The position numbers were made by a program, and so were the translations under genes. The notes beneath the pieces were generated by a model. That model was not told the DNA's origin, searched no databases, and was given only the letters and a program-made list of their open reading frames with translations. Positions 9,755-39,986 of a DNA stretch of 64,000 bases are shown here, one piece after another. Position 1 is the first letter of the stretch, and every line of letters starts with the position of its first letter. The stretch is from contig NZ_VAUV01000012.1 in assembly GCF_005780165.1 (NCBI RefSeq), positions 1 through 64,000 of the forward strand, written 5' to 3'. This DNA is from Phragmitibacter flavus. Its GTDB lineage: Bacteria; Verrucomicrobiota; Verrucomicrobiia; Verrucomicrobiales; Verrucomicrobiaceae.

Positions 9755-9880
9755 GGGAAGTGGGAAGTGGGAAGTGGGAAGTGGGAAGTGGGAAGTGGGA
9801 AGTGGGAAGTGGGAAGTGGGAAGTGGGAAGTGGGAAGTGGGAAGTGGGAAGTCGGAAGTCGGAAGTCGGAAGTGGGAAGT
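9755..9880. repeat. Heptamer tandem array (GGGAAGT)
   Basis: Eighteen 7-bp units, fourteen of them GGGAAGT up to 9852 and then mostly CGGAAGT variants, fill the gap between the divergently transcribed PSD1 gene and galU. The frame of galU remains open through the array (repeating GSGKWEV), and on the other strand the PSD1 frame does too (repeating HFPLPTS). The rest of 9657-10026 shows no gene. Confidence 0.97.
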
Positions 9881-32651: not shown

Positions 32652-33008
32652 TCACGCTACTGCGCTCTTCCGAGCCGGGCGTTTGCGTTCACTCTTCTTG
32701 GTGCCGCCCGCTTTCTCGTATTCGTCGCTGTTCTTGCCGAATTTGGTGGCGACTCCGGTGAGCATGCGATCGGAGAGGTCATCCAACTCTTTTTCCAGGG
32801 CATCAAACTGATTTTTCAGTTCGTCGACCGTGGAGAGGGCGGCGTTGTAGGCGGTTTGTTTTTGAATGGTTTCCTGGATTTTGGCGTTGTAGGCGACGAG
32901 GGTTTGCCCGTTGCCGAGGTCTAGAGCGGCGTCGATGGAGGAGAGTCCGGCGGCGCGGCCATTGGCTTTGAGGATGGATTCTGAATTGAGTTTTTTGAGT
33001 CTGGCCAT
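32652..33008 (-). CDS. Conserved-looking hypothetical with coiled coil
   Basis: 118 residues: MARLKKLNSESILKANGRAA, a helical middle (STVDELKNQFDALEKELDDL) and a basic end with GVATKFGKNSDEYEKAGGTK then KSERKRPARKS. A similar 'GKxSxEYExAGG-KSERKR' ending occurs in small proteins of other bacteria as far as I recall, but no function is known to me. The leucine heptads suggest an oligomer. It lies downstream of the 21-bp array and the large NTPase gene, on the same strand. Confidence 0.65.
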   Translation of the reverse strand: MARLKKLNSESILKANGRAAGLSSIDAALDLGNGQTLVAYNAKIQETIQKQTAYNAALSTVDELKNQFDALEKELDDLSDRMLTGVATKFGKNSDEYEKAGGTKKSERKRPARKSAVA

Positions 33009-33165
33009 GGGGATTGCTTGTTGGGGTTGGGGGTGATGGCTAGATCAATGATTTTGATCTCGCCTGTTGGGGTTTGGTTTGAATGCTGATGAACAGCTTG
33101 GCGAAATTCTATTCAAGTGATCCATAAATGCAAAATATTTACTGCGTTTATCGGAAAACAGCTCC

Positions 33166-33417
33166 TTCTTTTTATCAGGAGGAACCTTTTTCTTTGCAGG
33201 AGCAACTTCCTTTCGATCAGAAGGTTCTTTCTGAAGAGTGGATGGTTCCTTCTATTGAGTAGAAGGTGCTTCTAGAAGTCTGGAAAGTTCTGTCTTCTTT
33301 GTGGAAGGAACCTTCCGAAAGATTGGAGATACCTGCTATCAAATGGAGGGTTCCATCTGGAAAGAGGACGGTAATGTCCGTTATAGGGGAGGTTCTGGCT
33401 AGAGAGTGAAAAGGACA
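33166..33417. repeat. Array of twelve degenerate 21-bp repeats
   Basis: The stretch divides exactly into twelve consecutive 21-bp units with no indels. The consensus is TTCT, five variable bases, RTG, then GAAGGTTCY. Position 13 is G in 11 of 12 units and position 20 is C in 11 of 12; the other conserved columns are 3, 16 and 17. The 3' part contains the inverted repeat GAA-GG-TTC. Read on the minus strand in one frame, units 4 to 12 are free of stops and give a seven-residue pattern such as GTIHSSE, STFYSIE, RTFQTSR and GSFHKED; units 1 and 3 contain stops. The flanks (33009-33165 and 33418-33509) show weaker or no periodicity and no gene. Confidence 0.88.
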
Positions 33418-33509: not shown

Positions 33510-36500
33510 TTATCTTACAGGCGGAGAAAAGTGAATTAATAGTATCTCTAATCCCGAAACGCCAAGTCGATTCTGAAGGATTTCTTTGGATTTTTGCCGA
33601 AGAATGGCAAGCATTTGTTCACAGTTGATACGAGGACCTCCATTTAGTGAGTCCCACTTCCGATCTCTATTAAAAAGTGCAAGGACGTAAATTCCGTAGC
33701 GGGCACGGTGATCGCGGAGATAGGAGCCCACCAATTGATCCTCTAAACCATTAATTAAACCTTGAAAGGTCCAATTGTCGGCAATTTTAAGCTCCATTGA
33801 TACAGGAGCGGCGTCTGGAATTACCAGGCGAAGATCTGGACGTAATGATTGGTCAATTTCCCATTCTTGCGGAACGCTGTAGCGTCCTCTGGAACTTTCA
33901 TTGAGTCGTCGTTGAAGCCAACGGCGAAAGCTTGTTTCATTGTCTTCATGGCGAACTTCCTCTCGAGGGCTGTCTTCGCCGAATTCAACCCAGCGTTTAA
34001 TATCGGACAGCCTGCGGATGCCAATTTCAAATAGATCGGAGTCACTTCTAGGCTGCCGCTCATACTCGGTTGCGAATTCACGCATGTCTGTCGTATGCCA
34101 AGGGCTGATATCAGCAAATTTTTGGCGAGACTTATTAAGGAGGTATTTTATGTAGTCTTGTAGATGAGAGAGCAAGGGGTCGGCCAAAAGTGCCTGTAGC
34201 GTTTGACAGACATCGGGATGATCAGTCGCGACCAATCTGTCTAGTAAAGCGCCTCTGAAATCCTGAGCGTCGTCCCTAGTCGTTACATTATAAGCGCCTC
34301 CGCTTGAACGATTGGTATCCTCTTCACGACGAATATATTGGTATACCAGTGGGATGAATCTTAGCATGGCTATTGGATGCACCCATGATGGATTTGCACT
34401 CAGTGGAACATGATCGTCATAGCGGGAGCTAAGACTCGCAGAAACTGAGATCATCAATTCTGTAGGATCGATTGAATTTGGTAAATGTGAATCCAGAGCA
34501 TCTAAAGCATTGATCGCATCAAACTCAAGCCACAAGGCCATCCAAGTGGGAAAGCCAGGTGAAGTGCTGGCAATGGAATGGGCTTTATTTTGTATTAATC
34601 TGGTCAGTTCGTCCTCGGATGATAGAGGTGCTGAAAACAAGATTTTGATGGCATTATACAGTATGAAAAAATTCTGTGGCTCTTTGTCCGTCAATAGCTC
34701 GTAAATTTGGGGTTTCATCAACGCAGTTGCTCGACTGTTCGACCAAGCAAGGTAGTTGATAGCGATATGATAGAGTTCAAGCCCGGTAGAGGTTTGCCAT
34801 TCAGCAGCGATGCATTCAGCTAAAATTGATTGAACTGCCTGAGGCTGTGCTGATGTTAGATCATCAAACCATGGAGGGAATCCATTCATCTCTTGAAGAG
34901 CATATTTGGTGGCTCGTTGGGCGTCAGAGAATGGAAGGTCTGAGAATATTAATCTGCCATCCTGCCAGGCGGCCATGATTCCAGCAAGTCCTGCAATACA
35001 GCCATGTGTTGTGTTCCCGGAAGGATTTTTTTCATGAGGTAAATCTGGAGTATAACGTTTCCAGACTTGAAAGCATCCCTCTTTTGCGGCTTCTACACAT
35101 CGCCGTCCCATTTTTTTCTCAAGGGGCGACCAATCAGTCGGCGTCCATTTATCATGAGTCTCGTGACGGGCATCATCTATAAGGTGAACTAGCCAATTCA
35201 CATATTCGCCAGAACGCAGTTTGTTGCGGTAGCGCCAAAGGTTATATTGTTCACGGATTTTGAGAAACGGTTTTTTTACCTTTTTCAAAGCCATCCTACG
35301 TCGATAAGGTCTGAATTTTGGTTGTATTCGAATGTGCCAGAAGGCTTGTGCTCTGAAAAGTAGATTAGGGCAAAAGCGCTTTAATATCTCTCTGGTATTG
35401 GCGGATGAGTTGGCTAACCGCTTGATTTCTGCGAATTTTGAAGAGGATCGTCCTGTCTGGTGCCACACCTCTAAAGACCACTCAATCGCCCGTTTAAAAT
35501 CTGCGGGGGAAGTTGCTGCTGCTGCCCACTTTAGAAGCCAATCAAGGTCGGCGGCTACTGGCCTGATTCTATCATAATAGATTTGCACGCAGGACAAGTG
35601 AGAGGCTGCCTGCTCGTGATCTTTCTCTAGGCTATCCGCAGCGATACGAAAGTATTGTTCACGCACCTTCGGATGACGCTCAGTGCGTCCCGGTAAAGAG
35701 TCGTCACGTTCGACAGAAGGGCGATGATCACTGATCCGGACAATCACTTCCGCGATGGCAGTAGCTTCTGCTTCGGAAACCGTGGGCCAATCAAGAAGAA
35801 CTTCTGAGATCGCTAGCGCTGTTTTGAGACTCCAGGGTGGTTCGTAATCCTCTTCATTATCGTTATCGTCTACCGGATACCCGAGGAGCCCACGAAGGAG
35901 CGACAAACCATTCTCTTTGTATGTGACGGTAGGGAGGTATTGAGAAAGTGTGTAATCCCACCCAATCACGCCTTGAGTTGAAAACCTCAACCGACTGAAT
36001 GTGCGAAAGAGTTCCTTTGCTCCCCATATGCCTGGAAAAAGAAGTTTGCACAAAGGCATGCAAACTCTTCTGGGGAGAAGTTTGATCTCGTCCGCTGCCG
36101 CAGCTAGAGATCGCAGTTCTGATTCAGTGGCTGTGAGCGTCAGCGCACGAGAGGCGGTTGGGAAGATATCGCCTTTCTCCAGATCCTTAATCGCTATCGT
36201 CAGAACGACGTTTGTGCAGCCAGTTAATTTTCCCGCAATGACAATTTCCAGCGCCAGTTCTTGAATTTCACGGCCATTAGATGGGGTTGTCAGTAGTGTA
36301 TTAATATCCTCTGAGAGAGAGTCGTCGGCAAGTCGTGAAAGAGTTGCCTTTTCATGTTCCCACCAAAGACGTTCACGACCTTCTGCTTTTTGCACTAGAG
36401 CCTTCAACAGTGCACGCTTGTTCTCAGAACTTAATTGTGCTGGGTCACTGTAGCGAAGTAAAATTTCGGGGGCTGTCTCCAAGATGCACCGAAACACAAC

Positions 36501-37760
36501 AATGTTCCATTGATTGACACCTGCGGCAAGCCACGCCGCGAGTGGTGCGAGTGAGGGACGAAGAACTGGTTCAAGGCCACGGGTGTCAAAAAGAAGATCT
36601 TCCAGCACATCCACAGGACAACCCTGTTCCATAAGGTTTTTTAGCCACTTGAAAGCTAAAAATTCTGAGAGCCGTCGATGATGGAAACGAATGTGGCCGT
36701 AGCTCGCGCCATCGAAAATTGGACGTGTGAGAAGTGTTTGGATTTCTTCTTTACGCCAATCTGATGGAAGGCATCTGGACGCGTCAATTGCGTTTAAAGA
36801 AAAATGAATTTCTCCAGGAATTTGGAAGATGAATTTGCGACAAAACAGCGTTGCTGCTGCGAGATATTCAGCACCTGAACGTGCTCTTTCCAAAGAGAGT
36901 AGATCCCAACGGTCTCTATCGGATGCTTTTATGAGTTGGCGATCACATGTGAAATCGAGGATTTCGGTTAGAGTTCCTAAATTCTTCTTTTCTTTCCAAT
37001 AGGCGAGCAGATCGTTTACATCAGCGGGGCGTCTAGCGAACTCCCAAGAGTGAGTTCTTTCTAGCGCTTCGAGGAAGCTTTCCGCATGCGATGCTTGCCG
37101 TGCCGTTACATAAGTTTTTATGCCAGATTCATCTAGCGGCAATAAACTGACAACAAACGGATAGGGTTCTTCGGCTTTGTCCTCTTTTTCAAGATTAGGG
37201 ATCCGCATCCTTACTTCGTGTGCGTCAATCGTGGGAAGCCATTCTGTGATTCTCGAACTGATGACCACATTGGCTCGCAGCATTGCTCGTGCTCCGATGA
37301 GGTCGGTGAATCGATCAATCGCACGATGGAAATCCGCATTTTGCTGTATTTTCGCTTCATCCACCGAGTCGAGGAAGAAAACCGCGCGTGAGATCGAACC
37401 TTTCCATGCAGTCAAACTCGCTGAGTCTTCATTCCGCAATCTGATCTCGCTGCCCAAGGTAGCGAGTTCGTCTAAGCGCATATAAAACCGCGGAGCTTGC
37501 TGTGATCCTAAACTTGCTTGTGCTTGTAGTTCGTAACTTTTTCCACTACCGGGTTCGCCTAATATGACGACTAGGCGTCGCTTCAAGAGCTGTTCCCAGG
37601 TGTATCCATTGGTGAGAATGCCTTGGTCTGGATCAAAAACATAGTTTTTGTAAGCATAGTCCTCTAGGTCGCCATCTTCCCGCACAAGGGCGAATTTCCG
37701 GCCGAGGTCGATATAGTCTACAGGAGCGAGCATGATTGTGATTTTACATAAGGATGACAA
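33510..37760 (-). CDS. Large P-loop NTPase with C-terminal PD-(D/E)XK-like domain (candidate defence protein)
   Basis: 1416 residues. Near the N-terminus is a NACHT/STAND-like ATPase: Walker A GEPGSGKS (68-75) and Walker B VFFLDSVDEA (127-136). A following arginine-bearing strand VVISSRITEW is sensor-like. About 1100 residues of predicted helical repeats follow with no family I recognise. The last ~115 residues hold RPDLRL (Asp1309) and SMELKIAD (Glu1323, Lys1325), then a QLVGSYL helix, as in PD-(D/E)XK nucleases. A TTG at 37758-37760 has GGAGG four bases upstream; an ATG at 37731-37733 (MLAPVDYIDLG) is an alternative start. The gene is visibly richer in A+T than its neighbours and stands alone, which fits horizontal transfer. 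The defence role is inference. Confidence 0.8.
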   Translation of the reverse strand: MSSLCKITIMLAPVDYIDLGRKFALVREDGDLEDYAYKNYVFDPDQGILTNGYTWEQLLKRRLVVILGEPGSGKSYELQAQASLGSQQAPRFYMRLDELATLGSEIRLRNEDSASLTAWKGSISRAVFFLDSVDEAKIQQNADFHRAIDRFTDLIGARAMLRANVVISSRITEWLPTIDAHEVRMRIPNLEKEDKAEEPYPFVVSLLPLDESGIKTYVTARQASHAESFLEALERTHSWEFARRPADVNDLLAYWKEKKNLGTLTEILDFTCDRQLIKASDRDRWDLLSLERARSGAEYLAAATLFCRKFIFQIPGEIHFSLNAIDASRCLPSDWRKEEIQTLLTRPIFDGASYGHIRFHHRRLSEFLAFKWLKNLMEQGCPVDVLEDLLFDTRGLEPVLRPSLAPLAAWLAAGVNQWNIVVFRCILETAPEILLRYSDPAQLSSENKRALLKALVQKAEGRERLWWEHEKATLSRLADDSLSEDINTLLTTPSNGREIQELALEIVIAGKLTGCTNVVLTIAIKDLEKGDIFPTASRALTLTATESELRSLAAAADEIKLLPRRVCMPLCKLLFPGIWGAKELFRTFSRLRFSTQGVIGWDYTLSQYLPTVTYKENGLSLLRGLLGYPVDDNDNEEDYEPPWSLKTALAISEVLLDWPTVSEAEATAIAEVIVRISDHRPSVERDDSLPGRTERHPKVREQYFRIAADSLEKDHEQAASHLSCVQIYYDRIRPVAADLDWLLKWAAAATSPADFKRAIEWSLEVWHQTGRSSSKFAEIKRLANSSANTREILKRFCPNLLFRAQAFWHIRIQPKFRPYRRRMALKKVKKPFLKIREQYNLWRYRNKLRSGEYVNWLVHLIDDARHETHDKWTPTDWSPLEKKMGRRCVEAAKEGCFQVWKRYTPDLPHEKNPSGNTTHGCIAGLAGIMAAWQDGRLIFSDLPFSDAQRATKYALQEMNGFPPWFDDLTSAQPQAVQSILAECIAAEWQTSTGLELYHIAINYLAWSNSRATALMKPQIYELLTDKEPQNFFILYNAIKILFSAPLSSEDELTRLIQNKAHSIASTSPGFPTWMALWLEFDAINALDALDSHLPNSIDPTELMISVSASLSSRYDDHVPLSANPSWVHPIAMLRFIPLVYQYIRREEDTNRSSGGAYNVTTRDDAQDFRGALLDRLVATDHPDVCQTLQALLADPLLSHLQDYIKYLLNKSRQKFADISPWHTTDMREFATEYERQPRSDSDLFEIGIRRLSDIKRWVEFGEDSPREEVRHEDNETSFRRWLQRRLNESSRGRYSVPQEWEIDQSLRPDLRLVIPDAAPVSMELKIADNWTFQGLINGLEDQLVGSYLRDHRARYGIYVLALFNRDRKWDSLNGGPRINCEQMLAILRQKSKEILQNRLGVSGLEILLIHFSPPVR

Positions 37761-37867: not shown

Positions 37868-38315
37868 CTAGTGGTCGTTTGATGACACACGGATAAAGTC
37901 CGCGTTTCTTAGAGATTTGCCCCCTGCTCTTGAGCACTTGCATGAAAGCTTCTTGGGGAGGTTGAGTTTGCCGATACTCTTCATGCGCTTTTTGCCTTCT
38001 TTCTGCTTCGCGAGGAGCTTGCGCTTACGACTGATACTGATGTCGCCGCCGTAGCATTTGGCGGTGACGTCTTTTCTCAGGACGCTGATGCGTCCGCTGG
38101 CGATGGATGATCTTGCCACCTATGGCGGCTTGGATGGAGACGACGAAGAGTTGTTGGGGGATGACTTCCTTGAGTTTGGCGGCGAGGGCTCGACCGCAGG
38201 ATTCGGCTTTGCTGCGGTGGACGATGCGGGCGAAGGCGTCGACGGATTCGCCCGCGATTAGCATTTCCGTTTTGACGAGGTCGGCGGGATCGCAAACACC
38301 ATGGCGAGCGACCAT
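37868..38315 (-). pseudogene. lepA: lepA (elongation factor 4) 3' fragment
   Basis: The minus strand reads [40 protein letters not shown] and QAAIGGKII in one frame. A second frame then gives [20 protein letters not shown] and [20 protein letters not shown], and a third EAFMQVLKS. These are consecutive C-terminal blocks of EF4/LepA, so at least two frameshifts are present, plus a six-base duplication (DISIS for DIS). The GTPase and central domains are missing. The fragment cannot make EF4; a functional copy is presumably elsewhere. It lies just upstream of the NTPase gene and may mark a junction of the accessory region. Confidence 0.85.
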
Positions 38316-38372
38316 TCCAGATGAGCCTCAATGGCCCATGGATGGCGGCGCAGAAGATGTCGCAAGGTATTG

Positions 38373-38407
38373 AAAGGCTAAAGGCTAAAGGCTAAAGGCT
38401 AAAGGCT
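38373..38407. repeat. Heptamer tandem array (AAAGGCT)
   Basis: Five perfect copies of AAAGGCT, plus a partial sixth (AAAG), end a few bases before the stop codon of the next gene at 38416. Confidence 0.9.
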
Positions 38408-38415
38408 AAAGTGAT

Positions 38416-39755: not shown

Positions 39756-39811
39756 GTTCTTGGTTCTTGGTTCTTGGTTCTTGGTTCTTGGTTCTTGGTT
39801 CTTGGTTCTTG
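39756..39811. repeat. Heptamer tandem array (GTTCTTG)
   Basis: Eight perfect copies of GTTCTTG. It lies ten bases before a second array of a different heptamer and upstream of the TIM-barrel gene. The interval 39878-39986 between the arrays and the tRNA holds no feature I recognise. Confidence 0.96.
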
Positions 39812-39821
39812 GTTTGGCAGT

Positions 39822-39877
39822 CGGAAGGCGGAAGGCGGAAGGCGGAAGGCGGAAGGCGGAAGGCGGAAGGCGGAAGG
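39822..39877. repeat. Heptamer tandem array (CGGAAGG)
   Basis: Eight perfect copies of CGGAAGG, the same number and total length (56 bp) as the neighbouring GTTCTTG array. Confidence 0.96.
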
Positions 39878-39986
39878 AGGAGAGCCTCCTCACGTCGGCT
39901 GCTACGTGGGCTCGGGCGCGGAAAGGTGTGTTTCATGTTTGACAACGACGGGCTTCTGGGTAGTCTGCCCATCCTCAATCGCACAT

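Follow-up and report, generated by a model that had tools for sequence, protein, structure and literature searches.

Direct repeats that lie about two helical turns apart are familiar from plasmid origins, where the iterons are well conserved and are found by a replication gene. Bacterial minisatellites and VNTR loci are built of head-to-tail units of fixed length, which lie outside genes and vary by point mutation. Heptameric simple sequence repeats form tandem arrays in bacterial intergenic regions (PMC4692102), and the REP/BIME repeats are palindromic and extragenic, dispersed and of high copy number, with one consensus per genome (PMC2817692; PMC3733652).

Here we describe a degenerate tandem array at positions 33166-33417 of the window, the whole stretch of 64,000 nucleotides from Phragmitibacter flavus that was analysed. 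The array resembles minisatellites and VNTR loci in its head-to-tail arrangement outside genes and in its variation by point mutation, but its units are far more diverged (48% mean unit-unit identity), show no recent copying, measure exactly 21 bp and are dyad-symmetric. It shares with the iterons a direct-repeat step of about two helical turns, yet it lacks both their conservation and an adjacent replication gene. It is palindromic and extragenic like the REP/BIME repeats, but here each consensus occupies one locus and the units stand in tandem at 21 bp. The likeness to the heptameric repeats is that both are intergenic and tandem; moreover, the genome is rich in 7-nt arrays, 21 is three times seven, and one of two sister arrays described below (A2 and A3) meets a 7-nt array. 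However, the three 21-bp units contain no internal heptamer (p 0.26-0.48), and the period-7 signal of the array equals that of a column-permuted null (p 0.48). A derivation from 7-nt repeats was therefore rejected. In agreement with the original prediction, we found no named 21-bp repeat of this kind in the literature.

Near-perfect heptanucleotide arrays (AATGCGG, GGGAAGT, AAAGGCT, GTTCTTG, CGGAAGG) occur in the window at 1-127, 9755-9880, 38373-38411 and 39756-39881, and further ones on contigs C2, C6, C9, C21 and C24 of the same genome.

The array has the consensus TTCTNNNNAGTGGAAGGTTCC and no assigned strand. It comprises twelve units, eleven of them good; the last, at 33397, is weak, so that a fair count is 11-12. 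All twelve keep the phase, no indel separates any of them, and no out-of-phase units extend the array on either flank. The concentration of bases in the 21 columns is 0.524, compared with 0.321 +/- 0.011 in dinucleotide-preserving shuffles; none of 2000 shuffles of the same composition reached the observed value, even if allowed the best period between 15 and 29. Autocorrelation peaks at 21, 42, 63 and 84. The array is thus a run of fixed-length, head-to-tail units well above chance, as the original prediction had it. Tandem Repeats Finder missed it because the units are merely 48% alike. The columns proposed as conserved are indeed the most informative (13 and 20, 1.59 bits each; 3 and 16, 1.35 bits each; 17, 1.18 bits), but the remaining columns do not all vary freely, as had been supposed: columns 1, 4, 14, 15 and 18 are partly conserved.

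The unit profile is dyad-symmetric about an axis between columns 18 and 19. Complementarity at this best axis is 0.471, as against 0.357 +/- 0.026 for permuted columns, a value reached in 0 of 20000 permutations, and the information content of the columns is itself symmetric about the axis (r 0.71, p 0.004). Each unit thus consists of a 14-bp near-palindrome, AGAAGGWWCCTTCT, plus 7 variable bp; an example of the core, GAAGGTTCTTTCT, lies at 33220-33234 (no strand assigned), and the core recurs every 21 bp. The original prediction had made no mention of this symmetry. The divergence among the units is star-like: similarity does not decay over distance, and neighbours are no closer to each other than to other units. 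Copying of the units thus probably ended long ago.

On one side, 92 bp from the array as first described, lies the stop codon of a minus-strand gene (33510-37760) whose 1416-aa product had been put forward as a candidate defence protein. It scores 1246 bits against NCBIfam NF058534, the equivalog model for the NACHT antiphage protein HyoA, over a cut-off of 1200 and across positions 1-1429 of the 1430 in the model, and we assign it as hyoA; the gene has no match in Pfam or PADLOC. On the opposite side, a minus-strand gene for a 118-aa protein of unassigned function, taken from the open reading frame list (32652-33008), starts about 160 bp from the array and also has no Pfam or PADLOC match. 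The array and hyoA have a GC content of 43-47%, or 43-51% in 500-bp windows, and the whole window has 58%, which suggests that both sit in imported DNA. Beside hyoA, the minus strand also carries a fragment from the 3' part of lepA (elongation factor 4) that is frame-shifted (37868-38330); an intact copy of lepA is present on contig C5, and one of the heptanucleotide arrays lies on the far side of hyoA and this relic.

HyoA homologues are rare. They were found in 3 of 57 relatives, and full or partial matches in 6 of 388 genomes of the phylum, the present genome being counted in both cases. Recurrence of the array next to such homologues had been envisaged, but 77.7 kb of sequence surrounding full or partial homologues in five genomes contained no 21-bp array. 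Nor do these loci carry the segment as ordinary coding sequence, the finding that would have spoken against the original prediction; it is simply missing from them.

A consensus-free scan for periods of 11-39 bp, covering 2.45 of the 5.91 Mb of the genome, found three arrays that do not lie in clear genes, and every one has a period of 21 bp. The scanned arrays with periods of 18, 24 and 39 bp lie within long open frames. A2 is the second of the three (L237:4515-4892, contig C7); its roughly 18 units have the consensus GTTCCAAAAGGGATTTGGAAG and are dyad-symmetric (p 0.001-0.016), and it includes two 20-bp steps, 1-bp indels that would break any frame. A3, the third (L320:10303-10720, contig C23), consists of 19 units with the consensus AATGTAAGCGGCCGGTTTTTG, shows no dyad (p 0.7-0.8) and continues into a GGAAGTS heptamer array. 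A coding 21-bp array used as a control has no dyad either. The three consensus sequences are mutually unrelated; a kinship of the hyoA array with A2 through a common GGAAGGTTCC was considered and is not significant (p 0.37). A type ISP restriction-modification gene has its start codon 178 bp from the beginning of A3 and a SLATT_5 gene after it (together L320:4316-10125), and a SUKH-1 (SMI1/KNR4) gene lies about 4.5 kb from A2. Two of the three arrays directly adjoin defence genes, which is suggestive, although the count is post hoc with n = 3.

A 423-codon minus-strand frame spans A3 and a set of dispersed palindromes beside it, and we take it as probably spurious. These palindromes, at L320:10786-11200, are built around CCGACG-CGTCGG, often with GGCGCTCCATGG, and are present in several copies; about 40 of this type occur in 2.39 Mb of the genome, and four in the window.

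The sequence profile of the array, run against 143 genomes (its own and 142 relatives, none of them a second genome of the genus), recovered the array alone, all other matches being at chance level, and exact patterns of its consensus had no match in the genomes or in viral contigs. A looser tandem pattern matched at least 116 stretches in species genomes and 7 in viral contigs, including 21-bp arrays of Akkermansia, Puniceicoccales, Prosthecobacter, Lysinibacillus, Treponema and others. Among the matches listed, open frames contain 64 of 88 distinct stretches, and a dyad is not convincing in those columns that the pattern did not fix; accordingly, we do not claim a single cross-phylum family of 21-bp arrays. 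Four Lysinibacillus genomes (L105, L125, L178, L180) carry long, partly degenerate 21-bp arrays, sometimes several per locus, and one such set flanks a gene that encodes S-layer homology domains. Arrays of the common form CCCCC-N7-GGGGGAACT, in which the 7 bp vary between arrays, occur in metagenome-assembled genomes of Treponema, Planctomycetota, Prevotellaceae, Puniceicoccales and Spirochaetaceae (L104, L109, L142, L143, L213), a form that the search pattern favoured.

The reading that we prefer, and to which we give about an even chance, is that the array is a non-coding, degenerate intergenic tandem repeat of the minisatellite type whose period is exactly two helical turns. It would be one of a few arrays in the genome, unrelated in sequence, which have in common only their period and a place outside clear genes, near defence or conflict genes. 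A 21-bp seed in the low-GC, probably imported DNA beside hyoA would have been multiplied by slippage or unequal exchange; copying would then have stopped, and the units would have diverged independently through point mutation. The array would have no present function. The periodicity far above that of the shuffles agrees with this, as do the stops found in all six frames across the array, which leave no frame open for a coding heptad repeat. The star-like divergence is as expected once copying had stopped. The two further arrays with unrelated consensus, one of them with altered steps, the want of any other copy in the 143 genomes or at the loci of HyoA homologues, and the low GC content shared with hyoA point in the same direction. 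However, the columns are too unequal for uniform star decay (p 0.014-0.035; 0.004 for A2) and the dyad is highly significant, and neutral decay predicts neither. Moreover, zero indels for about 86 inferred substitutions is, by our own estimate, below what is usual in neutral DNA, and this reading does not account for the preference for 21 bp over other non-genic periods. Unequal columns, dyad and missing indels hint at a possible constraint at the DNA level.

Such a constraint is what would be expected if the units were phased binding sites, with a putative dimeric DNA-binding protein on each 14-bp dyad and all dimers facing the same side of the helix, where they would build a filament or regulate the adjoining imported defence gene. 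We consider this rather unlikely. Each unit does share a dyad at a fixed helical spacing, as a phased array should, and the phase is exact through every unit. The dyad is present in A2 as well and absent from the coding control, the columns are unequally conserved when measured against the star null, and A2 and A3 likewise lie near defence or conflict genes. Conversely, A3 lacks the dyad, the units are just 48% identical, and a single protein would be unable to read three unrelated consensus sequences by sequence. Measured against a random-tree null, the inequality of the columns loses its significance, and no array adjoins the other HyoA homologues examined. Phased sites had been part of the original prediction; what stands of it is the exact 21-bp phasing, with the named columns and the adjoining defence gene, joined now by the dyad and the unequal columns, and what finds no support is a link to the NTPase itself. 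A broader form of the idea, in which the lineage has a class of intergenic arrays of two-turn period, each with its own consensus and beside imported defence genes that would be controlled by a putative protein, reading spacing and dyad more than sequence and assembling along a single face of the DNA, strikes us as improbable.

It is also unlikely, though somewhat less so than this broader form, that the array is the relic of a small heptad-repeat protein. The best reading frame lies on the plus strand (33128-33409; pattern SxEWKVP), and not on the minus strand where a dying repeat protein had been proposed. It opens with ATG at 33128, is broken by one TAG (33260-33262) and ends with TGA (33407-33409), so that its two ends bracket the array. 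It has a single internal stop where about four are expected (p 0.02-0.03), the codons are coherent (p 0.003-0.007), and the twelve units contain no frameshift; in addition, 21 bp is seven codons, and the 18-, 24- and 39-bp arrays of the genome are coding. The coherence test was discarded as proof of coding, however, as a Lysinibacillus control array, read in a frame where nearly every unit has a stop, gave an equally positive result. Third codon positions are no freer than the others, with 198, 208 and 181 differences at first, second and third positions, respectively. As judged by eye, no clear ribosome site precedes the ATG. The translated frame has no match in Pfam or the PDB and a sole plasmid match at E 5, and the weak matches inspected in relatives were 7-nt arrays or chance. 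The 7-residue pattern is not itself evidence of coding, because any 21-bp period yields heptads in all six frames. Furthermore, the 1-bp indels of A2 do not suit a coding origin, and coding would not require the dyad, which is significant against a codon-block null (p 0.003). We conclude that support for a dying repeat protein is weak at best and that coding by the array today is unlikely.

Finally, it is highly improbable that the array is transcribed into an RNA whose predicted tandem or long hairpins are functional in themselves. The plus strand does fold strongly, into two long hairpins (-100.8 kcal/mol, z -3.5 against shuffles), but the consensus dyad explains the hairpins, the fold is no better than with random unit order (fraction 0.27) or shuffled columns (0.14), covariation of pairing within units was not found, and the sole Rfam match (E 0.14) is far below threshold, for which reasons a functional RNA structure was rejected.

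If these arrays are aged minisatellites only, then 21 bp is a favoured length of non-genic repeats in this genome, a point of interest for the origin of tandem repeats. If they are constrained, they would represent phased elements of an undescribed kind, situated near defence genes. With three loci within one genome, both readings can be put to the test.
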